A stretch of DNA of 64,000 nucleotides from NCBI GenBank assembly GCA_947494305.1, contig CANLUL010000001.1:1364001-1428000 (forward strand). Direction: 5' to 3'. Source of the stretch: an uncultured Sphingomonadaceae bacterium. GTDB lineage: Bacteria > Pseudomonadota > Alphaproteobacteria > Sphingomonadales > Sphingomonadaceae. Made by a program: the position numbers and the translations under genes. The notes beneath the pieces are model-generated. The model had not been told where the DNA came from and did no database searches. It saw only the letters and a program-made list of their open reading frames with translations. Shown piece by piece: positions 45,454 to 58,981 of the stretch; position 1 is the stretch's first letter, and the number at the start of each line of letters is the position of its first letter.

Positions 45454-45529
45454 GGGCCCTTAGCTCAGTCGGTAGAGCAACTGACTTTTAATCAGTAGGT
45501 CGCTGGTTCGAACCCAGCAGGGCTCACCA
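45454..45529 (+). tRNA. tRNA-Lys (anticodon TTT)
   Basis: A 76-nt cloverleaf with acceptor GGGCCCT / AGGGCTC (one G-T pair), D arm GCTCAGTCGGTAGAGC, anticodon stem ACTGA / TCAGT around CTTTTAA (anticodon TTT), T arm GGTTCGAACCC, discriminator A and encoded CCA. Confidence 0.96.
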
Positions 45530-45769: not shown

Positions 45770-46147
45770 TTAACCTGGACGATGCATGCCGCAGATTTTA
45801 TGTCCATCAAGGTCTCGAAAATAGCACAGATATATCTTACCCATAGCACCGTCTCGCAGTCCCGGAGGATCTTCAATACTTATCCCACCATACAGTATCG
45901 CTGCATCATGGAACGCTTGGATTTGTTCAGGTGAATTGCAGGTAAATCCAATAGTTCCACCATCCGCGCTATTGGCGTTTTTGTCGCTAATCGGTTCTGC
46001 AATACCAAAAATATTGCCGCCATGCATATAAAAGGCACGTTTGTGATTGGTGGTATTGGGTTGCACCATTCCTTCGCCAATCCCCAGAACTCCGAGTACA
46101 TTGTCATAGAAATTTTTGGCTTTATCTATGTCGTTGGTGCCGACCAT
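45770..46147 (-). CDS. VOC family protein, start codon unusual
   Basis: A glyoxalase-like protein with SHIMVGTNDIDKAKNFYDNV, GGTIGFTCNSPEQIQAFHD, and YFRDLDGHKICGMHRP at the end. The first ATG at 46147 lies within what is normally the family's first strand: homologous N-termini read like MFSHIMVGTND. The frame continues upstream as IFSHI to an ATT at 46162, and a GAGGAAAG ribosome site lies five bases before that ATT. I keep 46147 as the formal start. Function unknown; probably a small-molecule metal enzyme. Confidence 0.8.
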   Translation of the reverse strand: MVGTNDIDKAKNFYDNVLGVLGIGEGMVQPNTTNHKRAFYMHGGNIFGIAEPISDKNANSADGGTIGFTCNSPEQIQAFHDAAILYGGISIEDPPGLRDGAMGKIYLCYFRDLDGHKICGMHRPG

Positions 46148-46203
46148 TATATGACTGAAAATTTCTCTTTCCTCTCTATAATATTCGATAGATCCTCCAG
46201 AAT

Positions 46204-47451
46204 CTAACGCGCGCGATGATGTTTGAAGTAGATCGGCAACCAGTTGCTACCTTCTTCCTTAGTCTCGGGAAGGCGCTTTGATGGGGTTTCCATTCTGGAT
46301 GACTCGAGATATTTTTCGAAACGCGATTTTTTTTGCCAATGCCGGGAAACAACGCCGTCTCCATCTAGTTGGGCAGGCTTTGCTGCTGTGACATTTTGCA
46401 TCTCGGGCGGACAGAAAATTTCTCCGCCCAGTATGGAGACAGCTTCTTCCGGAAGGAAAGCATCACACTTCAATTTCTCGTCAGCACTTAACGCTTGATA
46501 GCGCTCTTGCAATTGCGCCAGACAATAGACCCGATATGGTGCCGTCACCACATCCCAACTGAGTCCGCCTTGCGTATATTGTGTCCGCTCCTCTCCTTGT
46601 TGAAACGCTCTTCTGTTCGCCACGAGATAGGGAAGATACTCGCTCGCAAATTTTTGGATGAGGGGCTTCAGGTCATCGGGCACAGATGCGATCTCATCGG
46701 TTGTTTCCAACTCGTCCGGCCGCGATGACCAGAGCCGGGCGACCCATCGAAAAACATGTGGCGCACGCACTTGCATGATCTCTTGCGATGTCGGGTCATT
46801 GGCAAAATGCGGAAACACCGGACCGTGCAGACCAATATCGGCCTCACAAGGGCGATCGCCAAACAGAAACGCGCGCTTCTTAAGGACCGGTTGCAATAAG
46901 TCGAGCAGATCAAGATAAAGCTCCTCAATGTGCCGGGCGTGGGAGGGGCTGGTTATGCCGTTTGCTTTCAAGTGCACTTTCTTTTGGCGAAAGGTTAAAA
47001 TACGCCGCAATATGGCACGCGGAAATTTGAATCCGTTGGCGGCAATTGTATAAGTAAACTCTTCACTCCGCCGAATTTCGTCCATCGGAAATGCCCAGCG
47101 ATAATAGAGCGCAGGTGCCCAAAGCCATTCGTCAAAACAATCTTCCAGAAAGTAGCTGAAAAACGCTGCGACAGGGTCTTTGGGCCGAATCGACAGCAAA
47201 GACGGATCCGCTTCAAATTCCTGAATAATCGGTGTGGTATCGCAAATCCAGCTCCCATCCGGACACTCGATCAGCGGAAGCTGCATCACGCCCACTTTTT
47301 GTGAAGATTGCGCAAATCCCGGCGCATCCATCTCAACAAATTTATAGGGAATGCCCTTTACTCGAAAGTATGTTTCCAGCTTCTTGGTGAAGTAAGAGCA
47401 GAACATTCCATGAATAATATAGTCTCCATCCTGCACAATTTTATCGGTCAT
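46204..47451 (-). CDS. GST-like protein with extended C-terminal domain
   Basis: The N-terminal ~80 residues form a GST thioredoxin-like domain: GMFCSYFTKKLETYFRVKG, MQLPLIECPDG (cis-Pro) and CDTTPIIQEFE. The next ~170 residues are helical, with LLDLLQPVLKKRAFLFGD and EADIGLHGPVF as in GST C-terminal domains. A further ~150 residues (from VANRRAFQQG) have no clear match, so at 415 residues it is about twice normal GST length. CSYF at the active-site position could give a catalytic Cys or Tyr. The ATG at 47451 with AAAAGGAG upstream is preferred. It overlaps the TetR gene by 11 bases. Confidence 0.8.
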   Translation of the reverse strand: MTDKIVQDGDYIIHGMFCSYFTKKLETYFRVKGIPYKFVEMDAPGFAQSSQKVGVMQLPLIECPDGSWICDTTPIIQEFEADPSLLSIRPKDPVAAFFSYFLEDCFDEWLWAPALYYRWAFPMDEIRRSEEFTYTIAANGFKFPRAILRRILTFRQKKVHLKANGITSPSHARHIEELYLDLLDLLQPVLKKRAFLFGDRPCEADIGLHGPVFPHFANDPTSQEIMQVRAPHVFRWVARLWSSRPDELETTDEIASVPDDLKPLIQKFASEYLPYLVANRRAFQQGEERTQYTQGGLSWDVVTAPYRVYCLAQLQERYQALSADEKLKCDAFLPEEAVSILGGEIFCPPEMQNVTAAKPAQLDGDGVVSRHWQKKSRFEKYLESSRMETPSKRLPETKEEGSNWLPIYFKHHRAR

Positions 47452-48208
47452 TTCCAACTCCTTTTAGTTTTTGAGGGCGCGGTAGCAGCGGCTCATGCGC
47501 AAGTATCTCTGGCGCCCTGTGGGACAATCTGTCCCGAACCCCGGCGTCACGCGTCACTGAATTCACGGATGTATGGTGTGAGGATGCTTGTTCCAATGCG
47601 ACCTTGAACTCACGCCCGGCAGATGCTTTCAGATTGGGGAGCAGGACAGCAAAATGGTGTTGAATTCCGCGCTCCTGATCTGCCCAACCAATTTCCTTCA
47701 GTCCTTCCAATTCGCGCAGATAGTCCATCCAATATCGGCTCACTATCCATAGTGATCGAACGAGCACGTCCGTATCTGGCTCCGTTCCATCAACAAACAT
47801 GCCCTCTTCCCGGATGCGTTCCAGCAGTGCGGAAAGCTCGTCAAAATCTGCCGTGAGTTCGGAGTCGGGACGCTGACCAATGGGCTCGTTCGCATATTGG
47901 AGATGATCCCGCATCAGGAAACGATTACTCCACGTCAGCTCCATTCCAAATAACAAGTGATCAACATAATCCTGAGCCAAAAGTCCGGGAATGAGGTTTT
48001 CACGGCGTGTTTTCATCAAGAGCAGAACGTCTGCTTCCAACTGCATTGCCAAGTGTCGTTTGGTAGGAAAGTGATATGTCAAATTGCCCTGAGACATACC
48101 CAAAGACGCTGCGATCTCGTTCAATGAGGTGGCCGCATATCCTTTGGCGTTAAACTGTTCTCGGGCGGCATTGAGTATCCGAATAGCGGTGGTCGAACGC
48201 GTTTTCAT
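47441..48208 (-). CDS. TetR/AcrR family transcriptional regulator
   Basis: The N-terminal HTH reads AIRILNAAREQFNAKGYAA, TSLNEIAASLGMSQGNLTYHF, a full TetR DNA-binding domain with YHFPTKRHL. The ~200-residue C-terminal part is a helical ligand domain without a known match. The gene sits divergently from a GMC oxidoreductase gene. Two tandem 16-bp palindromes lie in between, so it probably represses both directions and is released by a pathway compound. AAGGAG precedes the ATG. Confidence 0.88.
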   Translation of the reverse strand: MKTRSTTAIRILNAAREQFNAKGYAATSLNEIAASLGMSQGNLTYHFPTKRHLAMQLEADVLLLMKTRRENLIPGLLAQDYVDHLLFGMELTWSNRFLMRDHLQYANEPIGQRPDSELTADFDELSALLERIREEGMFVDGTEPDTDVLVRSLWIVSRYWMDYLRELEGLKEIGWADQERGIQHHFAVLLPNLKASAGREFKVALEQASSHHTSVNSVTRDAGVRDRLSHRAPEILAHEPLLPRPQKLKGVGNDR

Positions 48209-48249
48209 TACACCTTACTCCTTCCCCAATTAAAAGCACATTATCGAAT

Positions 48250-48285
48250 TAGGTTGTATTACCTATTTTTAGGTTGTACTACCTA
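48250..48285. promoter_or_regulatory. Two tandem TetR-type operators (TAGGTTGTAYTACCTA)
   Basis: TAGGTTGTATTACCTA at 48250-48265 and TAGGTTGTACTACCTA at 48270-48285 are 16-bp inverted repeats (arms TAGGT / ACCTA; inner GTA-TAC). Starts are 20 bases apart, so the two dimers would lie on almost the same face of the helix. They lie between the divergent tetR and GMC genes and would cover their promoters. Binding by the TetR protein is inferred from position. Confidence 0.75.
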
Positions 48286-48331
48286 ATTCACGATTCGGCA
48301 AGCTAATGTTGAAAAGATGGTGGAGCAGGAG

Positions 48332-49801
48332 ATGAAGCATATTGTCATAGTGGGCGGCGGAACTGCCGGATCGGTACTGGCGGCCCGCCTTAGTGAAGAC
48401 AGTGCTGTTCGAGTGACTTTGCTGGAAGCCGGTTCTGACGATTCCTCTTATAGTGCGGCAGTGCGCGATCCATCGCAGGCGCCCGAAGCCTGGGTTGGCG
48501 CCATCCCCGTTGCGCGCAGCTATATGCAAATGGAGCCTGCGGCTATTCCCATATTACAAGGTCGGATGTTGGGCGGCACCTCGGCTGCAAACGGGCTAGC
48601 AACACTGCGCGGCTTGCCCGAAGACTATGATAGTTGGGAAGAGATGGGGCTGACGGGTTGGAGCTGGGATGATGTGGTGGACACATTTATTGCAGCCGAG
48701 ACAGATGTTGATTTTGGAGAGACGCCTCTTCATGGCAGCACAGGGCCCCTGACAGTGCGGCGGTGGCGGCGTGATGAAATGAGCCGTGCTCAGCTGGCAT
48801 TTTATGATGGCATGATCGAAGCCGGCAATGATGCCGTAAGTGACATAAATGATTCCAGTCAGCTACCGGGTATTGGTGTGTTCCCCGTTACCATCGACGC
48901 AAATAGCGACCGATTGACCACCAGCCTGGCCTATTTGACGCCATCCGTGCGGGAGCGTGAGAATCTTACCATAAGGACTGATTGTGCGGTGCAGGGTCTG
49001 CACTTCGATGGGAACAAAATTGTCGGCGTTGTTACCGAGCAAGGCGAGGAAGTTGTTGCTGACGAGGTGATACTTTCTATGGGTGCGCTTTGGACGCCAA
49101 CCATGCTCATGCGCTCTGGTATTGGTCCTGCTGATCATTTGGCCGATCATGGCATAGCCTTACGTTCGGATTTACCGGTCGGTGAAACCATGAGCGATCA
49201 TCTCGGTCCTGCTGTTACCTATCAGCATGAAGGCCCGCGGGGAGGAACGGCGGGTCCTGCACAATCGCTTTATATCGGCGCATCAAATGGCAAAGATCCG
49301 GACTATCATCTGTTTCCTATTGCGCCGGCGCCCGGCGACGGACCAACAACGTTCAATATGGGCGTATTTTTGCTCCGTTCTTCGGGTGAGGGTAAGGTGC
49401 GTTTAACCGATGGTGAGGGTTTGACGCCAACCGTCTTTGCTCCTCCACTTCCCGATGACGGCGTGCAACGCCTGCGTCACGCATTTTGCAAACTAGCAGA
49501 TTGGGAGAAATCGGAGGCCGCGAAAAAATCCGGCTGCGAACCGATTGTTCCGTCAGACCTGACTGCTGATGATGCCGTTCAAACTGCACTCAATCGTGGT
49601 GTCATCAGCTATGGTCATATGACCAGCACCTGCCCGATGGGCGGGGTGCTTGATGCAGATTGCCGTGTGCTTGGTATTGATGGTCTGCGGGTAGTGGATG
49701 CGTCTGTCATGCCAACGATTCCATCCGGCAACACTTATCTTGGATGCGTAATGATCGCTGAACGGGTCGCGCGAAAAATGAAAGCGGCGGTCCAGCTATG
49801 A
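48332..49801 (+). CDS. GMC family FAD-dependent oxidoreductase
   Basis: GMC enzymes oxidise alcohols, sugars or choline with FAD. Motifs here: dinucleotide loop IVGGGTAGSVLAARLSE, then GRMLGGTSAANGLA and the His-Asn pair in ISYGHMTSTCPMGG and PSGNTYLGCVMIAE. At 489 residues it is at the short end (choline or PEG dehydrogenases are 530-560). Its electron acceptor is not evident. The ATG at 48332 has GGAGCAGGAG upstream and gives a start right at the FAD strand; the ATG at 48317 is an alternative. Confidence 0.9.
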   Translation: MKHIVIVGGGTAGSVLAARLSEDSAVRVTLLEAGSDDSSYSAAVRDPSQAPEAWVGAIPVARSYMQMEPAAIPILQGRMLGGTSAANGLATLRGLPEDYDSWEEMGLTGWSWDDVVDTFIAAETDVDFGETPLHGSTGPLTVRRWRRDEMSRAQLAFYDGMIEAGNDAVSDINDSSQLPGIGVFPVTIDANSDRLTTSLAYLTPSVRERENLTIRTDCAVQGLHFDGNKIVGVVTEQGEEVVADEVILSMGALWTPTMLMRSGIGPADHLADHGIALRSDLPVGETMSDHLGPAVTYQHEGPRGGTAGPAQSLYIGASNGKDPDYHLFPIAPAPGDGPTTFNMGVFLLRSSGEGKVRLTDGEGLTPTVFAPPLPDDGVQRLRHAFCKLADWEKSEAAKKSGCEPIVPSDLTADDAVQTALNRGVISYGHMTSTCPMGGVLDADCRVLGIDGLRVVDASVMPTIPSGNTYLGCVMIAERVARKMKAAVQL

Positions 49802-49864
49802 CCACAGCAATACAGCCCAACGGCAAGCGAGATTGTTTGAAATTAACATCATGGAGAAATGACA

Positions 49865-50509
49865 ATGACCAATAATGTCGATGTCTTCTGGTCCTTCAGA
49901 AGCCCCTATTCCTATCTGGTGACACCAGATTTGATGAAATTACGCGAAGATTATGATGTGAATGTTGTCTTCCGGCCGGTATTGCCGATAGCGCTGCGTG
50001 CCAAGCAGACGGTGTTCGACGCATCGGACAAAAAGCGCCCTCGCTATATCGTGATGGATTCTAAACGCAGGGCAGAATTCCTTGGCCTACCCTTTGTCTG
50101 GCCCAATCCCGATCCCGTTATTCAGGATCTGGAGACATATGAGGTCCCAGAGGAACAGCCGTATATCTGGCGCCTGTCCTCCTTAGGGGTCGAGGCGGAA
50201 CGACAAGGGCGCGGTATCGACTTCGCTCATCACGTTGCTGCGCTGCTTTGGAGTGGCGTGCGTGGTTGGAATGAAGGCGACCTTCTTGCTCAGGCGACCG
50301 AAAAGGCTGGTCTCAATCTTTCCGAATTGGAGGCCGCTGTCGAACTATATGACGTTCGCGCGGAGATCGCGAAAAACCATGAGATGCTGGAAGAAGCTCA
50401 ACATTGGGGTGTTCCCACCATGGTATTCAAGGGCGAACCTTTCTTCGGTCAGGATCGCATTGATACGCTACGTTGGCGGCTTGATCAGGCTGGCCTGAGG
50501 AAAGGCTAA
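49865..50509 (+). CDS. 2-hydroxychromene-2-carboxylate isomerase/DsbA-like (kappa-GST) protein
   Basis: The 214-residue protein has the family start VDVFWSFRSPYSYLVTP (Ser active site; no CxxC), a helical insertion with RYIVMDSKRRAEFLGLPF, and the cis-Pro loop WGVPTMVFKGEPFFGQDRI. HCCA isomerases are glutathione-dependent in naphthalene degradation and use this kappa-GST fold. Whether this one isomerises a ring cleavage product or another substrate is unknown. I chose the ATG at 49865, eight bases after GGAG, over the one at 49859. Confidence 0.87.
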   Translation: MTNNVDVFWSFRSPYSYLVTPDLMKLREDYDVNVVFRPVLPIALRAKQTVFDASDKKRPRYIVMDSKRRAEFLGLPFVWPNPDPVIQDLETYEVPEEQPYIWRLSSLGVEAERQGRGIDFAHHVAALLWSGVRGWNEGDLLAQATEKAGLNLSELEAAVELYDVRAEIAKNHEMLEEAQHWGVPTMVFKGEPFFGQDRIDTLRWRLDQAGLRKG

Positions 50510-50563
50510 ACCGCGTGGATCGGCTCTACGCGTCTACACAGAATTTACATAAGGAGAAATACG

Positions 50564-51358
50564 ATGGACCTTCAAATCAAGGGTAAAAAAGCGGTTATGG
50601 CTGGCGGTAGTGCCGGTATGGGCCGTGCCACCGCCGAGCGTCTTGCCGAAGCTGGCGCTGAACTGGTTATCTCGGCGCGCAGGGAAGAACGGTTGGTAAA
50701 TGCCGCCCGTGAAATAGCTGAAAAATATGGTACAAAAGTAACCCCCGTGGTTGCCGATTCCTCAACGGAAGAAGGCCGCAAAGCCCTGTTTGCCGACTGC
50801 CCTGACCCGGACATCCTTTCGATTACCATCAAACCGCCTGCACCCAACGGAGATTTCCTGAAGGTCACACCTGAGATGTGGCGTGAATCCATCGAAACGG
50901 CACTGATCGGACCGACCGAAATCATGCGCCATTATATTCCGGTCATGAAGGAAAAAGGATGGGGGCGTATTGTCAATATCGCGACCTTCTCGGCCAAGAA
51001 TCCGATGATCTGGCGATTGATGTCGGGCCCTGCGCGTTCCGCTCTGCTCAACTATACTGCAAGCGTGTCTCGTGAAGTGGCGCAGCATGGCGTGGTTATC
51101 AATAATCTGCTGCCCGGCATGTTTCAAACCGAGGGCGCTTCAGAGATCATGGGACATTATGCCGAAGCATTCGGTTTGGAAGCAGATCCTGAAGTCGTGG
51201 GCAAACATTTCAGGGAACATAACAAAATTCCCGCAGGTTTCGTCGGTGTGGCCGATGATCTGGCACCAATGGCTGCATTTTTGTGCAGCGACCTGGCGCG
51301 CTTCATCGTTGGTCAGAATATAGTGATCGATGGCGGGCAGCATAACGCGATCTTTTGA
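50564..51358 (+). CDS. SDR family oxidoreductase lacking the YxxxK catalytic pair
   Basis: The Rossmann part is intact: VMAGGSAGMGRATAERLAE and a C-terminal LCSDLARFIVGQNIVIDGG as in ketoacyl reductase-like SDRs. The catalytic site is not. The YxxxK position reads SGPAR (Tyr replaced by Ser, Lys by Arg), and the upstream Ser is Thr (NIATFSAK). This matches an atypical ketoacyl-reductase-like SDR subgroup of unknown activity. It lies between the HCCA isomerase-like and ALDH genes. An AAGGAG site precedes the ATG. Confidence 0.85.
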   Translation: MDLQIKGKKAVMAGGSAGMGRATAERLAEAGAELVISARREERLVNAAREIAEKYGTKVTPVVADSSTEEGRKALFADCPDPDILSITIKPPAPNGDFLKVTPEMWRESIETALIGPTEIMRHYIPVMKEKGWGRIVNIATFSAKNPMIWRLMSGPARSALLNYTASVSREVAQHGVVINNLLPGMFQTEGASEIMGHYAEAFGLEADPEVVGKHFREHNKIPAGFVGVADDLAPMAAFLCSDLARFIVGQNIVIDGGQHNAIF

Positions 51359-51456
51359 TGAACCTGACTTTCGCCGCGATGACCAAATTGGACATCACGT
51401 CTGTCAATTGGATCTGAGATTGGCTTGCCATCTCTAAGGATTTGGAGAAAAATTTT

Positions 51457-52881
51457 ATGGACAGCTTCGAACAAAATTACATCAACGGCAAATGGATCGA
51501 TTCCGACGGCGGCACGCCGCATCGAGTCATCAATCCTGCTACAGAGGAACCAGGCACCAAAATCGTTCTAAGTACAGCGGCAGATGTTGATCTGGCTGTA
51601 GCAGCGGCCAAGGAAGCTTTCAAATCCTTCAGCCAGACAACGCGCGAGGAGCGGCTTGCCTTGCTCGGAAGGATCGTCGGGGAATATCAAAAACGCATGC
51701 CTGACATTGCGGCGTCTCTAGCTGTTGAAATGGGCGCACCTATCAGCATGGGAAATGCGCTGCAGGCGCCGACAGGATTGGGCGGGTTCATAAGCACAAT
51801 CGCGGCGCTCAAGGAGTTTCAATTTTCTGAGCAACAGGGATCGAATTTGATAGTACACGAACCTATCGGTATTGTGGGAATGATCACGCCATGGAATTGG
51901 CCGCTCAATCAGATTTCCCTAAAAGTTGCACCGGCACTGGCGGGGGGAAACACCATGGTGCTAAAGCCTTCGGAGGAATGTCCGGGATGCGCAGCGATCT
52001 TAGCCGAAGTCATGGATGCCGCGGGCGTCCCACCCGGCGTGTTCAATCTTGTTCAAGGCGATGGACCGACAGTTGGCGCTGCGCTTTCATCTCATCCAGA
52101 CGTTGATATGATCAGCTTCACCGGTTCGACGCGGGCCGGTGTATTGGTGGCAAAAGCTGCCGCAGAAACTGTAAAACGCGTCCACCAGGAGCTGGGTGGC
52201 AAATCTCCCAATGTTGTTCTGCCGGGAGCTAATCTCGAAGAAGTATTGCCTCCCACAATCAGCGGCGTCCTGATCAACACTGGACAAAGTTGCATCGCGC
52301 CAACTCGCGTATTGGTGCACAAGGATCAGACAAAAGAGGCAATTGATGTTGTCACGGGCATTGTCGAAGCACAAGAGATTGGTGATCCAATGGATCCAGG
52401 CAATCATATGGGACCAGTGGTCAACAAGGCTCAGCACGGCAAGATTCAGGAACTCATTCATTCAGCCATTGATGAAGGCGCTATTCTCGAGAGCGGGGGT
52501 GCCGCTATGCCAACTAATGTCAATCGCGGTTACTACATAAAACCAACCATTTTTAGTGGTGTTACGCCAAATATGAGGATAGCCAAAGAAGAGGTTTTCG
52601 GGCCTGTTGTGACCTTGATGAGTTACAATGATCTTGATGAAGCCATAGAAATTGCAAACGATACGGAATATGGGCTCTCGGCAGTCATTTCTGGAGATCC
52701 GATTGAAGCCGCCAAGGTTGCAACCAAGTTGCAGGCGGGAGCGGTAATGATCAACAGTTGGGCGCCCGCACCGGGTGCGCCCTTTGGAGGTTACAAGCAA
52801 TCCGGCAATGGCCGCGAAGGCGGACCACAAGGCCTGCGAGATTTCATGGAAATCAAGTGTATTTCGGGGTTGCCGGCATAG
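51457..52881 (+). CDS. Aldehyde dehydrogenase family protein
   Basis: A 474-residue NAD(P)-dependent aldehyde dehydrogenase with catalytic Cys279 in NTGQSCIAPTRV, Glu in HQELGGKSPNVV, cofactor Asn in TPWNWPLNQIS, and SFTGSTRAG. The catalytic set is complete. Together with the GMC oxidoreductase it would turn an alcohol to an aldehyde and then an acid. The ATG at 51457 is nine bases after GGAG; the frame is open to 51442. Confidence 0.92.
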   Translation: MDSFEQNYINGKWIDSDGGTPHRVINPATEEPGTKIVLSTAADVDLAVAAAKEAFKSFSQTTREERLALLGRIVGEYQKRMPDIAASLAVEMGAPISMGNALQAPTGLGGFISTIAALKEFQFSEQQGSNLIVHEPIGIVGMITPWNWPLNQISLKVAPALAGGNTMVLKPSEECPGCAAILAEVMDAAGVPPGVFNLVQGDGPTVGAALSSHPDVDMISFTGSTRAGVLVAKAAAETVKRVHQELGGKSPNVVLPGANLEEVLPPTISGVLINTGQSCIAPTRVLVHKDQTKEAIDVVTGIVEAQEIGDPMDPGNHMGPVVNKAQHGKIQELIHSAIDEGAILESGGAAMPTNVNRGYYIKPTIFSGVTPNMRIAKEEVFGPVVTLMSYNDLDEAIEIANDTEYGLSAVISGDPIEAAKVATKLQAGAVMINSWAPAPGAPFGGYKQSGNGREGGPQGLRDFMEIKCISGLPA

Positions 52882-52901
52882 CGAGACGAAAGGCAATTTG
52901 G

Positions 52902-53288
52902 ATGACCCGCAATCTGAAATTGGAAATTGGTTACCAGAATCGACAAAAACCGGATCGCCAATATGTAGCGAAACAGGTTTTGTCGATCTGGGATAGACGC
53001 AAGATTATTTTTGCTGACTTTCAAATTCCAAATGAAGAGATGTGTTTGAACATTCTTGCATTCGTATTGGTGAGAACCGATTTCGAAAAACCAGTTCTGG
53101 CAAGCGAAATAGTGGCGAGGTTCAATTCTCCAAAATCAACCACCTATAGATATTTACAGTTGCTAGGTGATGCCAGATTGCTGAAATTGCACAAAGGCAA
53201 CAATGAGCTGATTGTAAACCTAGCTTCTGCAGGCAGTGCATTGCTCGATGAGTTGTTCAATCAGATTTCCGAGGCGCAAAAATGTTGA
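52902..53288 (+). CDS. Winged-helix DNA-binding protein, unknown family
   Basis: The 128-residue protein has an N-terminal basic region and a winged-helix-like part: LASEIVARFNSPKSTTYRYLQLL is a helix-turn-helix and KLHKGNNELIVNL a wing. It is probably MarR/IclR-like without a ligand domain. The ATG at 52902 has AAAGG upstream. It comes 20 bases after the ALDH gene, so it may be a second regulator of the cluster. No recognised family; function is a guess. Confidence 0.65.
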   Translation: MTRNLKLEIGYQNRQKPDRQYVAKQVLSIWDRRKIIFADFQIPNEEMCLNILAFVLVRTDFEKPVLASEIVARFNSPKSTTYRYLQLLGDARLLKLHKGNNELIVNLASAGSALLDELFNQISEAQKC

Positions 53289-53409
53289 TTTGAATTTCGT
53301 GCCGGAATGCCCGCCCACGAAAAGAAGTGGAAATTTTCCAATAACAATGGATGAGGTGAATAATCTCATTTGGATCACTTGCACTGGTTACCAAACATCG
53401 GAGGAACAA

Positions 53410-55305
53410 TTGAAAAAGCGTAAATTTTTAATAGCGTGTAATGCCGCGCTGGTATTGGTTAGTTGTGGTGATATTCAGGAAAAGCCGGTTCAAGCTAGCA
53501 AAGTTGAAAACACCGAGTATCCCGAGCAGGTATTCTGGGGCGATACGCATCTTCATACGGATAATAGCATCGATGCTTTTGGGTTTGGCAATCGTCTTGA
53601 TGCAGAAGCGGCATTGCGTTTTGCGCGAGGGGAGAAAGTCACCGCGTCTAAGGGAGACGCAGCACACCTTTCACGCCCGCTCGATTTTCTGGTAATCGCC
53701 GATCATAGCGACGGTCTTGGCGCACTCAAAACACTCTACAACACTCCCCGCATTGCCGTTTCTCTTTTCGGAAATGATTTTCTGCTTCGTTGGTATGACA
53801 TGATGCATGAAAGTGACGAAGGCTCACTTCGTGTTGTCAATGAGATGACAGACGGGGCCGCCAATGACACGTTGCCGGACGATCTGTTTGATCCTGAAGA
53901 AAGCGCTGAGCGGACAAGTGAAATCTGGAAAGCACACGGAAAAACCGTCGACGAATATAATGAACCCGGCAAATTCACTGCTTTCATGGGTTATGAATAC
54001 ACTTCCATGCCAGGGGGAGATAATCTTCATCGTGTGGTCATGTTCCGCGATGGCGCCGAAAAAGCAACGCAGGTTAGCCCCTTCCCAGCTCGGGAGTCCC
54101 AAGACCCAGAAAAATTATGGGAGCATATGGCCGCGTATGAAAAGAAAACCGGCGGAAAAATGCTCGCGATTCCGCACAATGGTAATGTCTCGAACGGCCG
54201 GATGTTTGCGATGCAAAAATATGATGGCAGCCCAATTGATGCGGCTTATGCTAAAACCCGGGCGCTGCGCGAACCAATTGTAGAGATGACCCAGATCAAG
54301 GGTGACAGCGAAACGCATCCTTTTCTTTCACCCAATGATGAATTTGCCGATTTTGGCAATGTCGGTTGGGATCAATGTAATCTGAGCTGCACTCGGGAAA
54401 TGTCTCCAGAAAGCTATGCTGGAAGCTATACACGTGAAGCTCTAAAACGTGGGTTGGAGCTTATGCAAACTGTCGGTGCTAATCCTTTCAAATTTGGAAT
54501 GATCGGTTCAACCGACAGCCACACCTCGCTTGCAACGGCAGACGAAGACAATTTTTTCGGCAAACATAGTGGAAGTGAGACCAACAACGGGGACCGCGCT
54601 TTAAAACCTCAAAACTTGGGCACGAATGAAGGGCGCTTCGGTTGGCATTACCTGTCCAGTGGTTACGCCGCTGTTTGGGCCACCAGCAATACACGCGAAG
54701 CAATATTCGACGCGATGATGCGACGCGAAGTCTACGCAACGACTGGACCGCGCATGCAGGTGCGTTTCTTTGGCGGATTTGATTTTGCAAAAGAGGATAC
54801 CGGTGATCTAGTCAAAACTGGCTATGCCAAAGGTGTTCCTATGGGTGGTGACCTATCGGGAGGAGATGGCAAAGCGCCAACCTTTCTCATCTCCGCCACA
54901 ATGGACCCAGAAAGTGCCAGCCTGGATCGCATCCAGATTGTCAAAGGTTGGGTCAATGCAAGCGGAAAATCGCAGGAAAAAGTCTATGATGTCAGCTGGA
55001 GCAAATCGGACACACGTAAAGCTGACGCTGATGGCAAGCTTCCTTCAGTTGGTAACAGTGTCAATCTGGCTACAGGCAAATGGGATAATAGCATCGGTGC
55101 CCCGGAGCTGGTAACATTTTGGCAAGATCCAGATTTTGATGCAGGCCAAAATGCTTTTTACTATGTGCGAGTGCTGGAAATCCCAACACCAACCTGGCCC
55201 GTTTATGACGCGCTGAAATTTGGACTGACACTGCCAGATGATGTCATCAAAATTCAACAGGAACGCGCTTATTCATCGCCGATTTGGTATACGCCAACGA
55301 CGTAA
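53410..55305 (+). CDS. DUF3604 lipoprotein (PHP-like metallo-phosphoesterase fold)
   Basis: The start is a TTG at 53410 with GGAGG five bases upstream. It gives a lipoprotein signal with lipobox LVSC (Cys19), which an upstream start would disrupt. The body has metal-site patterns of a PHP-like fold: WGDTHLHTDNS, VIADHSDGLG, AIPHNGNVSNG and GSTDSHTS, the DUF3604 core. The family is about 620 residues and uncharacterised, often beside catabolic genes. A periplasmic or outer-membrane hydrolase role is likely. It is probably the last gene of the rightward cluster. Confidence 0.88.
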   Translation: MKKRKFLIACNAALVLVSCGDIQEKPVQASKVENTEYPEQVFWGDTHLHTDNSIDAFGFGNRLDAEAALRFARGEKVTASKGDAAHLSRPLDFLVIADHSDGLGALKTLYNTPRIAVSLFGNDFLLRWYDMMHESDEGSLRVVNEMTDGAANDTLPDDLFDPEESAERTSEIWKAHGKTVDEYNEPGKFTAFMGYEYTSMPGGDNLHRVVMFRDGAEKATQVSPFPARESQDPEKLWEHMAAYEKKTGGKMLAIPHNGNVSNGRMFAMQKYDGSPIDAAYAKTRALREPIVEMTQIKGDSETHPFLSPNDEFADFGNVGWDQCNLSCTREMSPESYAGSYTREALKRGLELMQTVGANPFKFGMIGSTDSHTSLATADEDNFFGKHSGSETNNGDRALKPQNLGTNEGRFGWHYLSSGYAAVWATSNTREAIFDAMMRREVYATTGPRMQVRFFGGFDFAKEDTGDLVKTGYAKGVPMGGDLSGGDGKAPTFLISATMDPESASLDRIQIVKGWVNASGKSQEKVYDVSWSKSDTRKADADGKLPSVGNSVNLATGKWDNSIGAPELVTFWQDPDFDAGQNAFYYVRVLEIPTPTWPVYDALKFGLTLPDDVIKIQQERAYSSPIWYTPTT

Positions 55306-55476
55306 CATTGGCTGCTTAACTGATTTGACTCAACTCTCTTCAACGTGATCCAAGCTTACATATCTAGATTGGGAGAAGATGCTATGGTCGGCTTGGTTGC
55401 GATATTTGGCGCTGGCTCTGAACCATTAAAGCACATCCATTTTTACCGAGATCGAAATATCTTTCCAAAGCAGGAA

Positions 55477-56418
55477 TTATTTAATTGTCAGTGACAAGTT
55501 TTCGCTCGTTAGTTCGATAATCTTCTTCAATACATACTTGGCATCCGCAACTTCACTGTCCGTGAGATGAGCCATCAGACCATCTTCAAACGCTTTGGCC
55601 ACTTCCAGAGTTTCAATCAGATTACTTCGCCCCTTTGCCGACAGGTCAAACTCGTTACCATTTTTGAGCAACAATTCTCTTTCCAACATGGATTCGAGCT
55701 CCACATCACTTGGCGCCAATCCGGTATGTCCAAGCCGATCCGATATATCCGATGATTTTGCCGGAGCGATCATACTCAAGACCGCCAAAACCATATATTC
55801 AGTTTGTGTCAGGCCCAATTGTTCGAATTTTTCGCGTGTTGGAAGTGAAGTCTGAAAATGCGCTCTCGAAACCAGGTAAAGCAGGAAATCTTCCGTGAAA
55901 CGCCCCCCTGTGACGTCGACATTGTCTCCTGCCTCATTTTTGACCTTGGGCCTGCTTTCGGCATACCGCCCGCCGTGAAAGAGCAAGGGGGCATGATCTT
56001 TACGATCAAATTCGATGACCTCTCCGACCAAAATAACATGATCACCGCCTTCGTATTCATGCATCATTTTACACTGGAACAAGGCGGAATAGTTATCAAG
56101 AACTGGTGAGCCCAGCACTCCTGATCTCCATTTCACATCGGCAAATTTTTCTGCGCCAGAGCGTGCAAAATTATTCGAAAGCTCTTCTTGAGCAGCGGAT
56201 AGAACATGAATACAAAAATGGCCGCTACTGCAAAAAGCCTCCTTAGATGAAGACGATTTAGCCAAAGACCAAAGTACAAGCGGTGGATCTAGGGATACAG
56301 AATTAAAGCTACTGGCCGTAACGCCAATCGGTTCACCCGTTTCCGATGTTGTCGTCACGATTGTTACACCTGTAGCAAATGTGCCCAAAGCTGCTCGAAA
56401 ATCACTTTGTTTATCCAT
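55477..56418 (-). CDS. Flavin reductase with C-terminal MarR-like domain (C1-HPAH-type)
   Basis: Residues ~1-160 are an FMN-binding flavin reductase (FRAALGTFATGVTIVTT, GVTASSFNSVSLDPPLVLWS, EYEGGDHVILVGEV). Residues ~165-313 are a winged-helix MarR-like domain (TEYMVLAVLSMIAPAKSSDISDRLGHTG). This order and length (313 residues) match the reductase C1 of Acinetobacter p-hydroxyphenylacetate hydroxylase, whose C-terminal domain is an autoinhibitory ligand sensor. It should give reduced flavin to a partner monooxygenase, but no oxygenase is encoded nearby. The ATG at 56418 is two bases after the fnr stop on the same strand. Confidence 0.88.
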   Translation of the reverse strand: MDKQSDFRAALGTFATGVTIVTTTSETGEPIGVTASSFNSVSLDPPLVLWSLAKSSSSKEAFCSSGHFCIHVLSAAQEELSNNFARSGAEKFADVKWRSGVLGSPVLDNYSALFQCKMMHEYEGGDHVILVGEVIEFDRKDHAPLLFHGGRYAESRPKVKNEAGDNVDVTGGRFTEDFLLYLVSRAHFQTSLPTREKFEQLGLTQTEYMVLAVLSMIAPAKSSDISDRLGHTGLAPSDVELESMLERELLLKNGNEFDLSAKGRSNLIETLEVAKAFEDGLMAHLTDSEVADAKYVLKKIIELTSENLSLTIK

Positions 56419-56420
56419 CG

Positions 56421-57125
56421 TCAAGGTTGCAAGTTTGCCAGCGCCACCAACGCATCTCTATCTCTAATAACAATGTCTCGTTTGCCAGGCAGATCAACTA
56501 CTGACTTTTTCGATAGATCCGTCAATTGCCGGCTCACCGTTTCAATTGTCAAACCTAGAATATCCGCAATTTGCTGGCGACCAAAGGGCAAGCTAAACTG
56601 GTTCTGTGGCATAAAATTTGTTGCGCAGCTCGAATCAGCAGACCGTTCAGACATATTGATCAGGAATGTTGCCAGTTTCTCTGCTGCAGTCTTGCGCCCT
56701 AATAACAACATCCAATCTCGAGCCTGATCCAACTCGTCTAATGTACGCTCGAGCACCTTGTGTTCAAGATTGGGATGGTCATGAGCGAACTGCTCAAAGC
56801 CATTTCGGGAAAAGCTACATATCTGCGTATCGGTCAATGCGGTTACGGTATGTTTTACATTATCTTGATAGGGGCGACCGATAAAATCTGCTGGAAAGGC
56901 AAGGCCAACAATCTGCTCCCGCCCATCATCCAGCGAGTTTGTCAGCTTCAAAACACCGTCAATCACATTCGCAACAACAGTAGATTCATCACCTTCCCAC
57001 ATAAATGTTTGGCCAGCTTTCAAGACTTGCTTGTGGCCAATGCGATTCATTATTTGTAATTCGCCATCATCCAGAGAACCACAAATTGCTTTGTTACGGA
57101 CGACACAATCTTCACATACTGACAT
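56421..57125 (-). CDS. fnrL: Crp/Fnr family oxygen-responsive regulator (FnrL-like)
   Basis: The N-terminus holds a C-x2-C-x7-C set (Cys4, 7, 15) and a further Cys103, as in FnrL/FixK-type proteins that bind a 4Fe-4S cluster. The cAMP-binding-like beta roll follows, and the HTH is GRQQIADILGLTIETVSRQL, with E..SR to read TTGAT. It would activate cbb3 oxidase genes at low oxygen. The gene is divergent from ccoN, with one perfect FNR box in between. The downstream flavin reductase gene begins two bases after its stop. Confidence 0.92.
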   Translation of the reverse strand: MSVCEDCVVRNKAICGSLDDGELQIMNRIGHKQVLKAGQTFMWEGDESTVVANVIDGVLKLTNSLDDGREQIVGLAFPADFIGRPYQDNVKHTVTALTDTQICSFSRNGFEQFAHDHPNLEHKVLERTLDELDQARDWMLLLGRKTAAEKLATFLINMSERSADSSCATNFMPQNQFSLPFGRQQIADILGLTIETVSRQLTDLSKKSVVDLPGKRDIVIRDRDALVALANLQP

Positions 57126-57221
57126 GACTGTCCCTTAGAGAACCCGCTTAAAAATGTATAGCGGGAATGATAATCGTTTTGGTTCTATTCCTATAGGAAT
57201 TTTCGATTGGTCGGCAAAAGT

Positions 57222-57235
57222 TTGATCCAGATCAA
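57222..57235. promoter_or_regulatory. FNR box TTGAT-N4-ATCAA
   Basis: TTGATCCAGATCAA is a perfect FNR consensus palindrome. It lies 76 bases before the ccoN start and 97 bases before the fnr start. It would support activation of ccoN and possibly autoregulation of fnr. It is the only perfect FNR box I noticed in the window. Confidence 0.9.
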
Positions 57236-57310
57236 AGAATCAATTCAAAAGCACTCCTACGGTCTTCCTGTTGAAGCGGAATTCATGCCGCTTAAACGGG
57301 GAAGGACATC

Positions 57311-58981
57311 ATGGATCTAATATTACTGAGGGCTGGCGGATGGCTGGCTTTGGCATTTGTTGCATTTGCTGCGATGGTTATGGCTGTCGACAGCGGTTTT
57401 GCTTTTCACATGGCAATCTTCATGATTGCCTGCTTTATTGCTCTTTGGGTGACGGTCAGTAAAGCTGACTATCAAGCCATTGGAAGAGGGATTATTAAAG
57501 CTCCCGCTGATCAGGGGCTTTACGATGATGATCCAATCCGTTGGGGTATCATCGCGACTATTTTCTGGGGCATGGCCGGCTTTCTTGCAGGACTTTATAT
57601 CGCACTGCAACTGGCGTTCCCGGTTCTGAATTTAGGATTGGAATATACGACGTTCGGGCGCCTCCGCCCGCTTCACACGTCTGCCGTAATTTTTGCTTTC
57701 GGAGGCAACGCGCTGATTGCGACGAGTTTTTACATCGTCCAGCGCACTTGCAGGGCGAGGTTGGCCTTCCCCGGCCTCGCCCGCTTTGTTTTCTGGGGTT
57801 ACCAGCTGTTTATCGTGCTGGCCGCCACGGGCTACCTATTGGGTATCACTCAATCGAAGGAATATGCCGAACCGGAATGGTATGTCGATATATGGCTTAC
57901 CATTGTCTGGGTAAGTTATGCCGCTGTGTTTATCGGCACGATCGTCAAGCGCTCCGAACCGCATATCTATGTCGCGAACTGGTTTTTCCTTTCATTCATC
58001 CTAACCGTTGCAATGCTGCATTTGGTCAATGGCCTGGCCATGCCGGTCAGCCTGCTCGGTGCCAAAAGTTATAGTGCTTTTGCGGGGGTTCAGGATGCTC
58101 TGACGCAATGGTGGTATGGCCATAACGCTGTCGGTTTTTTCCTGACCGCTGGTTTCCTGGGCATGATGTACTATTTTGTGCCAAAACAGGCTGAGCGGCC
58201 GGTGTACAGCTACCGCTTGTCGATCATTCACTTCTGGTCACTGATCTTCCTGTATATCTGGGCTGGCCCTCACCACTTGCACTATACGGCGCTGCCCGAT
58301 TGGGCGCAGACGCTGGGCATGGTCTTCTCGATCATCCTTTGGATGCCTAGCTGGGGTGGAATGATCAACGGACTGATGACGCTGAATGGCGCATGGGAGA
58401 AAATCCGCACCGACCCGATCATTCGGATGATGGTCCTAAGCCTAGCATTCTACGGCATGAGCACCTTTGAAGGACCGATGATGTCGATCAAGGCAGTTAA
58501 CAGCTTGTCGCACTATACTGACTGGACCATTGGCCACGTGCACTCGGGTGCTCTGGGCTGGAACGGTATGATCACCTTTGCCGCGATCTATTATCTTGTA
58601 CCACGTCTGTGGGGCAAGCAACGCTTGTATAGCTTGCGCATGATCAACTGGCATTTCTGGCTCGCGACTATGGGTATCGTGCTCTACGCCGCATCAATGT
58701 GGGTCGCCGGGATCATGCAAGGCCTGTTATGGCGCGAATATGGCGATGATGGATATCTCGTCTATTCCTTCAGCGAAGTGGTTAGCGCGATGCTTCCCAT
58801 GTACCTGATCCGCGCAGTGGGCGGTCTCATGTATCTCGCTGGAGCTATAGTAATGGTTTACAATGTCTGGATGACCATCGCTGGCAAACAACGCGATGAG
58901 AAGCCGATGACCGAAACACCGCATGATCCTGAAGCCGATAAGCCGTTGGTGCACAAACCAACTGCAGTTCCAGCAGAATAA
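57311..58981 (+). CDS. ccoN: Cytochrome c oxidase cbb3-type subunit I (CcoN)
   Basis: The catalytic subunit with the low-spin heme b His in [19 protein letters not shown], CuB/heme b3 ligands in [14 protein letters not shown] and [11 protein letters not shown], and the late [19 protein letters not shown]. It has at least 12 membrane segments plus an N-terminal extra pair. It reduces oxygen to water with high affinity and pumps protons. The tail after ~530 is polar. It is the first gene of an FnrL-controlled operon. Confidence 0.97.

Follow-up and report, generated by a model that had tools for sequence, protein, structure and literature searches.

Among described bacterial systems, the isoprene pathway (isoGHIJ-aldH) includes a glutathione conjugate that IsoI makes and IsoH oxidises, as set out in PMC10057887, and the catabolism of lignin-derived dimers employs GMC oxidases, glutathione S-transferases (GSTs), aldehyde dehydrogenases (ALDHs) and lignostilbene dioxygenases, as described in PMC12997858. 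Here we analyse a 64,000-nucleotide stretch (the window; G000:C1:1364001-1428000) of the 3.35 Mb genome of an uncultured Sphingomonadaceae bacterium, in which an earlier note had picked out a TetR-linked oxidative cluster of eight genes with unassigned substrate. A Pfam scan of the ten proteins spanning 45770-56424 located all eight genes where the note had placed them, the winged-helix protein being weakly IclR-like and below the cut-off, and the cluster fits no pathway that could be matched. We find that the eight-gene block is a composite rather than one conserved unit. Its heart is a recurring cassette made up of a divergent TetR gene, a GMC oxidoreductase, a DSBA-fold protein resembling 2-hydroxychromene-2-carboxylate (HCCA) isomerase, an unusual short-chain dehydrogenase/reductase (SDR) and, often, a long GST.

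A recurring cassette at the heart of the block

In the window, the genes for a long GST-like protein (46204-47451) and a TetR-family regulator (47441-48208; Pfam TetR_N, 4.7e-15) lie on the reverse strand and diverge from forward-strand genes for a GMC-family FAD oxidoreductase (48317-49801), a DSBA-fold protein of HCCA-isomerase or kappa-GST type (49859-50509; Pfam DSBA, 3e-21) and an SDR-fold protein (50564-51358), the last recognized by Pfam and residue alignment. Searching 60 relatives with the GST gave seven further loci that carry TetR, DSBA, SDR and GST genes, and a whole GMC gene lies between TetR and DSBA at six of these seven. Three of the seven loci share a common context, whereas the flanks of the remainder differ. 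The GST gene follows either TetR (82-88% identity) or the SDR (about 37%). In Sphingomonadales bacterium EhC05 (genome G007; L069/L022), a short GMC remnant stands between TetR and DSBA and scores 129 bits, compared with 912-983 bits for whole copies.

Searches with the SDR, in which the six best candidates per genome were scored, found orthologues (identity 81% or higher) in 6 of 396 genomes of an order sample, 5 of 385 of a class sample and 1 of 398 of a phylum sample, the bacterium's own genome included each time. Matches passing the E-value limit occurred in 20/396 and 13/385 genomes of the order and class samples in all, and those at 44-52% identity form a separate paralogue group. When the SDR alignment was run against 84,980 named species genomes, starting from two peptide patterns, 81 stretches were confirmed and 80 kept, giving 79 loci: 53 with 76-89% SDR identity (L069-L121) and 26 with 37% or less (L122-L147). 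The 53 orthologue loci are labelled as Sphingomonadales, Rhodobiaceae, Hyphomicrobiales, Henriciella, Halieaceae, SAR92/Porticoccaceae, Cellvibrionaceae and K189A, together with unplaced Alpha- and Gammaproteobacteria bins and one Myxococcota bin; most of these lineages are marine. Many of the loci come from metagenome-assembled genomes, and some may therefore reflect errors in binning.

Partner genes were counted within 4.5 kb of the SDR gene with profile models built from these loci, taking the 26 other-SDR loci as controls. At least one partner was present at 43 of the 53 orthologue loci and at none of the 26 controls; the models had drawn their training sequences from among these 53 loci, which inevitably favours the scores there, whereas the controls lie outside the training set. 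The SDR is common to all 53 loci by choice of bait. A DSBA gene accompanies it at 31 (cassette-type at 24, a longer SAR92-type at 7), TetR at 17, AraC at 15, GMC at 15, GST at 14 and DUF3604 at 3. TetR and AraC never occurred at the same locus, and the GMC gene was found at 14 of the 17 TetR loci, at none of the 15 AraC loci and at one further locus, L100. Within the genus, cassette DSBA orthologues (76-79% identity) are present in 8 of 32 genomes, the same eight that have a mapped SDR core; a 47-50% DSBA paralogue is present in 31 of 32, and its surroundings in three genomes pointed to no pathway.

The TetR|GMC-DSBA-SDR order recurs beyond close relatives: apart from Sphingomonadales, one Rhodobiaceae bin and one Henriciella bin have it, and in Gammaproteobacteria the SDR and DSBA genes stand together. 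This core thus withstands the refuting condition named in the earlier note, an order confined to close relatives. The ALDH, winged-helix and DUF3604 genes lie outside the recurring cassette. On an SDR tree of 50 orthologue rows and 4 paralogues, in which 13 forks are weak, Alpha- and Gammaproteobacteria are intermixed and the regulator changes eight times for TetR and seven times for AraC, at least six and at least four of these changes being forced by starred branches. The mixed classes and regulator changes fit horizontal transfer with regulator exchange. We set aside carriage of the cassette by plasmids, since plasmid searches returned one distant SDR match (45.8%), one distant GST match (28.7%) and none for the cassette DSBA; the SDR had no match in the viral contigs searched. 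Over the genes compared, non-synonymous distances (dN) were 0.07-0.37 and synonymous differences per site (pS) 0.58-0.87, most synonymous distances being near saturation, and yet gene order, spacing and the palindromes described below are kept as the flanks change. Sphingorhabdus sp. EL138 has a second TetR-DSBA-SDR copy (L116, its second locus), the SDR match of which is limited to residues 1-189.

Tandem palindromes in the divergent promoter

The gap between the TetR and GMC genes contains two tandem palindromes of the form TAGGTN6ACCTA that the earlier note had overlooked, putative operator 1 at 48250-48265 (TAGGTTGTATTACCTA) and putative operator 2, 20 bp from it, at 48270-48285 (TAGGTTGTACTACCTA); shuffling the window 100 times produced none. 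The genome has no further site of this pattern, compared with 10 sites for a reversed control pattern. The exact motif was found at 15 of the 17 TetR-type loci and at none of the 36 other orthologue loci, and at 14 of the 15 it adjoins the start of TetR within the divergent promoter; at L092, where TetR and GMC both run leftward, it lies in the GMC-DSBA gap. Ten of the 15 loci carry two exact copies, whose starts are 20 bp apart at nine loci and 19 bp apart at the tenth. At L117 and L119, the region of the TetR-GMC junction holds only TAGGN8CCTA sites, a looser form of the motif that is also found at unrelated places. The combination expected of a local regulator, a TetR_N domain with palindromes in the divergent promoter, is thus present. 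We take the palindromes to be predicted operators of a dedicated local regulon, to which TetR would bind.

A conserved SDR with substituted active-site residues

Catalytic roles given to residues here and below are those generally assigned in SDR, GMC, NahD and GSTK1 enzymes. In an alignment of the window protein with those of the 53 loci, the SDR cofactor motif GxxxGxG is present (G14, G18 and G20 in 53 of 54 rows, with one gap). The catalytic Tyr-x3-Lys is replaced by S154-x3-R158 in all 54 rows and NNAG by TIKPP, with T88, P91 and P92 in 54 rows and I89 and K90 in 53; N95, G96, S143, G155, P156 and A157 are invariant as well. Between the window SDR and six relatives, dN was 0.07-0.11 with 0.75-0.81 synonymous differences per site. 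The dN values for GMC, DSBA and TetR were higher (0.16-0.37), and those for the GST (0.08-0.12; three relatives) and one DUF3604 pair (0.12) were comparable. Invariant replacement residues together with low dN argue that this protein is not decaying. We conclude that the SDR is strongly conserved under purifying selection; the earlier note was right that Tyr-x3-Lys and NNAG are absent, but its term 'degenerate' does not hold in the sense of decay.

The 44-52% paralogues keep Ser154, Gly155 and Arg158, and six of six have Ala at position 143. At three loci in 1.3-1.4-Mb genomes of the class (L150, L151 and L153), a paralogous SDR lies beside an FAD enzyme and other likely catabolic genes, in what looks like a cyclic-compound cluster in small genomes. 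At L151 the neighbours are a P450, a Rieske oxygenase, a crotonase and a KstD-like FAD enzyme; a family scan confirmed the P450, the Rieske oxygenase and the FAD enzyme, the last of these being closest to 4-oxocyclohexanecarboxylate and 3-ketosteroid dehydrogenases, all below cut-off. The SDR paralogue of the bacterium's own genome (46%; L148, G000:C1:384000-403900) lies about 2.7 kb from another DUF3604 gene.

Flavin- and glutathione-type enzymes

The GMC protein has the features of its family, with a GGGTAG-type FAD motif, GMC_oxred_N and _C domains and C-terminal His/Asn motifs, of which HM..CPMG and GNTYL are both present in 16 of 16 rows; relatives at cassette loci are 64-72% identical where measured. 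The only PDB sequence match of the DSBA protein at E<=0.001 is a 2-hydroxychromene-2-carboxylate isomerase. The protein aligns with NahD (2imd) and, weakly, with human GSTK1, and a motif serine is common to all three; its motif FRSPYSYL is present in 24 of 24 rows printed. Both the DSBA fold and the active-site serine expected of an HCCA isomerase are therefore present.

The long GST combines a GST_N_3 domain with a helical C-terminal part and a low-confidence tail, and is identified by Pfam, orthologues and a structure model. Its start is best placed, reading from the sequence, at ATG 47451, overlapping the end of the TetR gene; homology searches used 46207-47439. Orthologues of 82-88% identity lie beside the core TetR at L069, L070, L120 and L121, and GST genes also occur 3' of the SDR, at 65% identity at L081 and as 34-41% versions at other loci. 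The GST had no PDB sequence match at E<=0.01. Foldseek matches of its model (pLDDT 74.3) are GSTs, led by 4kf9, with StyI (9qd3) at ranks 4-5 and the β-etherase LigF at rank 47; TM-scores over the 50 rows shown were 0.51-0.68 by target length. Fold and motif thus support glutathione chemistry for the DSBA and GST proteins, as predicted from models and alignments. A paralogue of the window GST (33%) lies at G000:C1:608057-609172, with two TGA codons inside the match.

Probable local additions and neighbouring genes

Three more genes follow the SDR on the same strand with gaps of 98, 20 and 121 bp, encoding an ALDH (51457-52881; Pfam), a small winged-helix protein (52902-53288; Pfam HTH_IclR, 19.9 bits, cut-off 22) and a DUF3604 lipoprotein (53410-55305; Pfam, 3.6e-241). 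From their distribution, they are best seen as local additions downstream of the recurring cassette. The ALDH is 83% identical to a second copy in the same genome (G000:C1:1198456). Of 13 same-genus genomes searched, 7, the bacterium's own among them, have copies of 78-83% identity at other sites, and four of these share one chromosomal setting. At the 53 loci, tblastn found distant ALDHs only (37% at L070 and 33% about 9 kb away at L101). These results speak against the alcohol-to-acid pathway that the earlier note had built from the GMC and ALDH enzymes. The winged-helix gene is lineage-restricted, with no relative in 97 other genomes or at the 53 loci (tblastn).

DUF3604, which the earlier note had counted as an integral step, is an occasional accessory, within 4.5 kb of the SDR at three loci. 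At L069 an 81% relative directly follows the SDR. DUF3604 has 7 matches in the own genome, of which two are neighbouring pieces on C3, and at least one match in all 18 genomes searched. The start of the window gene is best placed at TTG 53410 behind GGAGG, followed by a lipoprotein-type signal, as read from the sequence, and a PHP-like HxH motif can be made out by eye. A fold model (pLDDT 58.8, from 6 sequences) gave β-sandwich matches only and was not used as evidence.

Terminator-like sites (12, compared with 10.8 in shuffles) and promoter-like sites (14, compared with 9.5, sd 4.0) at the cluster give no guide to operon limits. Just beyond the cluster, a leftward glyoxalase-family gene (45770-46147; Pfam) has no relative at the 53 SDR-orthologue loci (tblastn). 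On the other side, a flavin reductase with a C-terminal extension (55477-56424) is a near-full-length match to the reductase component of p-hydroxyphenylacetate hydroxylase (220 bits, cut-off 340). A Crp/FNR-type gene and cco (cbb3 oxidase) genes also lie near the cassette (window 55477-58981), as they do in a different arrangement at two Erythrobacter loci, L080 and L082, where the family scan for the Crp domain covered L080; this proximity is possibly due to chance. A tRNA-Lys gene ends at 45529 beside the cluster, yet a tRNA is present at only 6 of 56 related loci, and the single 18-nt direct-repeat pair found lies inside the DUF3604 gene, so the idea of a genomic island was dropped.

Across 38 of the 53 loci (15 near-duplicate or short-contig loci being left out), we scanned 155 non-cassette proteins within 5 kb in two batches (104 and 51), each reported as its 25 commonest families. 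LysR (at least 7), TonB receptor and TetR_N (at least 6 each), GST_N_3 and adh_short (at least 5 each), and AMP-binding and MFS_1 (at least 4 each) were the families that recurred, and they define no single pathway common to all loci. In the SAR92/Porticoccaceae setting, the SDR is accompanied by an AMP-binding enzyme of acyl-CoA-synthetase type, a second SDR and an α/β hydrolase. At L070, an RPE65-family protein closest to lignostilbene dioxygenase (375 bits, cut-off 800) and another ALDH stand beside the cassette, which hints at phenolics or apocarotenoids as substrate.

Proposed function and alternatives

We propose that the cassette is a ligand-inducible, glutathione-dependent conversion unit that travels as a whole, a reading we hold tentatively and rate at somewhat less than an even bet. 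It builds on what is observed, namely gene content, conservation, palindromes unique in the genome, purifying selection and modularity, and from these we infer repression and induction, every reaction and its substrate, co-transcription and the order of steps. TetR would bind the two tandem palindromes between tetR and the GMC gene and shut off both GST-TetR (leftward) and GMC-DSBA-SDR (rightward), until released by a small-molecule ligand, probably an alcohol, reactive carbonyl or epoxide met by marine bacteria. The GMC enzyme would oxidise an alcohol to a reactive product, on which the DSBA/HCCA-type protein and the long GST would carry out a glutathione-dependent isomerisation, conjugation or opening; the SDR, with its remodelled active site, would act on that product or on the conjugate. 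This strain would have added an extra ALDH copy, the winged-helix gene and the DUF3604 lipoprotein downstream, so that the end product here may be an acid. A more specific proposal, which we find distinctly doubtful, is an undescribed glutathione-dependent pathway that marine bacteria have passed on by horizontal transfer and that TetR or AraC can control interchangeably; its central SDR-fold enzyme would use the Ser...Ser-x3-Arg/TIKPP site to act, perhaps with no net redox change, on a common marine compound conjugated to glutathione.

Several results weigh against the proposed conversion unit. No partner lies within 4.5 kb of the SDR at 10 of the 53 loci, three of them on short contigs (L083, L102 and L115), so it can also occur by itself; within that distance 38 loci lack GMC and 39 lack GST. 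Near-copies among the 53 loci keep the counts from being independent. At several loci the cassette does not stand on its own: LysR, TonB receptor, TetR_N and AMP-binding families recur around it, in many cases in the SAR92-type setting. Confidence in the GST model is moderate (TM-scores by query length, 0.31-0.44), and the reactions are deduced from fold and motif, as none of the cassette enzymes has a close relative that has been characterised. The partnerless loci and the repeated swapping of TetR and AraC on the SDR tree would also suit independently useful redox genes kept near one another by chance or co-transfer and sharing no joint function; this we consider very improbable, given that none of the control loci has any partner and that the TetR|GMC-DSBA-SDR order, spacing and palindromes persist despite changing flanks and near-saturated synonymous distances.

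Rather unlikely is a role confined to electrophile-stress defence, in which the cassette would detoxify a toxic aldehyde, quinone or epoxide, such as an algal defence compound, with no carbon gained, TetR sensing the toxin, the GST and DSBA proteins conjugating it, and the GMC and SDR enzymes adjusting the redox state. Such a role would agree with the lack of a transporter or CoA ligase among the window genes scanned, with a putative operator motif at a single genomic locus, with the patchy presence in the genus and with one host being strain EhC05, which we take to have been isolated from an alga. However, alcohol oxidation by the GMC enzyme would make an aldehyde rather than remove one, and the SAR92/Porticoccaceae setting, with its AMP-binding enzyme, second SDR, hydrolase and TonB-receptor genes, looks catabolic. 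The RPE65-family protein and ALDH at L070, the LigF match of the GST model and the enzyme classes known from lignin-dimer pathways raise the possibility that the cassette is a fragment of a catabolic route for aromatic dimers of lignin or stilbene type, resembling that of Sphingobium SYK-6 (HpvZ or PhcC/PhcD, GSTs, ALDH and lignostilbene dioxygenase). We regard this as improbable, because the GMC protein is just 33% identical to the Novosphingobium hpvZ product and 35.3% or less to plasmid-encoded proteins among the matches listed (30 of 918), the dioxygenase-like protein was noted at one locus, and no ring oxygenase is among the 25 commonest neighbour families shown per scan. The single strand and short gaps from the SDR to DUF3604, together with terminator-like sites no more frequent than in shuffles, would permit the original version of one eight-gene alcohol-to-acid pathway with DUF3604 as a surface hydrolase; it is extremely improbable in view of the 53 other loci, which lack winged-helix relatives and have only distant ALDHs, the ALDH's own chromosomal places in the genus and the multiple DUF3604 matches in this genome.

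Whichever chemistry applies, the cassette looks like a portable kit for processing one small molecule in many, mostly marine, bacteria. What had been a vague candidate is now a defined and testable unit: its operator is predicted, its distribution is wide, and its SDR is strongly constrained and has a non-textbook active site. The ligand of TetR could reveal the substrate, and hence what many genes do that now carry no annotation beyond GST, SDR or HCCA isomerase in SAR92, Halieaceae, Sphingomonadales and other bacteria.

Comparison with known systems

The open-access literature searched held no description of the cassette under its family-name combinations. Unlike polyethylene glycol (PEG) operons, the ten proteins of 45770-56424 include neither a transporter nor an acyl-CoA ligase. 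The best NCBIfam match of the GMC protein is the mycofactocin dehydrogenase MftG (296 bits, cut-off 387) and its best PDB match is hydroxymethylfurfural (HMF) oxidase. With NahD and kappa GSTs, the cassette DSBA protein has in common the fold and the serine of the SP(F/Y)S motif, although the relationship is distant (27 bits over the aligned stretch) and there are no naphthalene genes among the window genes scanned. Sphingomonad lignin-dimer enzymes resemble the cassette region in that GMC oxidases, ALDH and GSTs are found in bacteria of the same taxonomic order, according to PMC12997858, but the sequence comparison, which was made with the hpvZ product only, gave the low identity noted above.

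The isoprene and styrene (StyI/StyJ) pathways, like the cassette region, have two GST-type proteins, an SDR and an ALDH, and their StyI is matched by the cassette GST model. They differ from it in that no monooxygenase or CoA transferase is encoded among the ten proteins scanned, whereas the cassette has a GMC enzyme, one DSBA/kappa-type partner and an SDR without the usual catalytic residues; the cassette GST scored 28.6 bits with the IsoI equivalog model, below its cut-off of 300. For the SDR itself, alignments show that the solved proteins 5vps, 5idx, 5va8 and 1o5i likewise have Ser-x3-Arg in place of Tyr-x3-Lys, and a further solved relative, 6jh7, has Ser-x3-Asn at this position. Their record names are generic, save that of 1o5i (3-oxoacyl-ACP reductase), and 5vps, 5idx and 5va8 retain NNAG where the cassette protein has TIKPP. 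The presence of Ser-x3-Arg in these solved relatives places the cassette SDR in a known non-canonical branch of the family.

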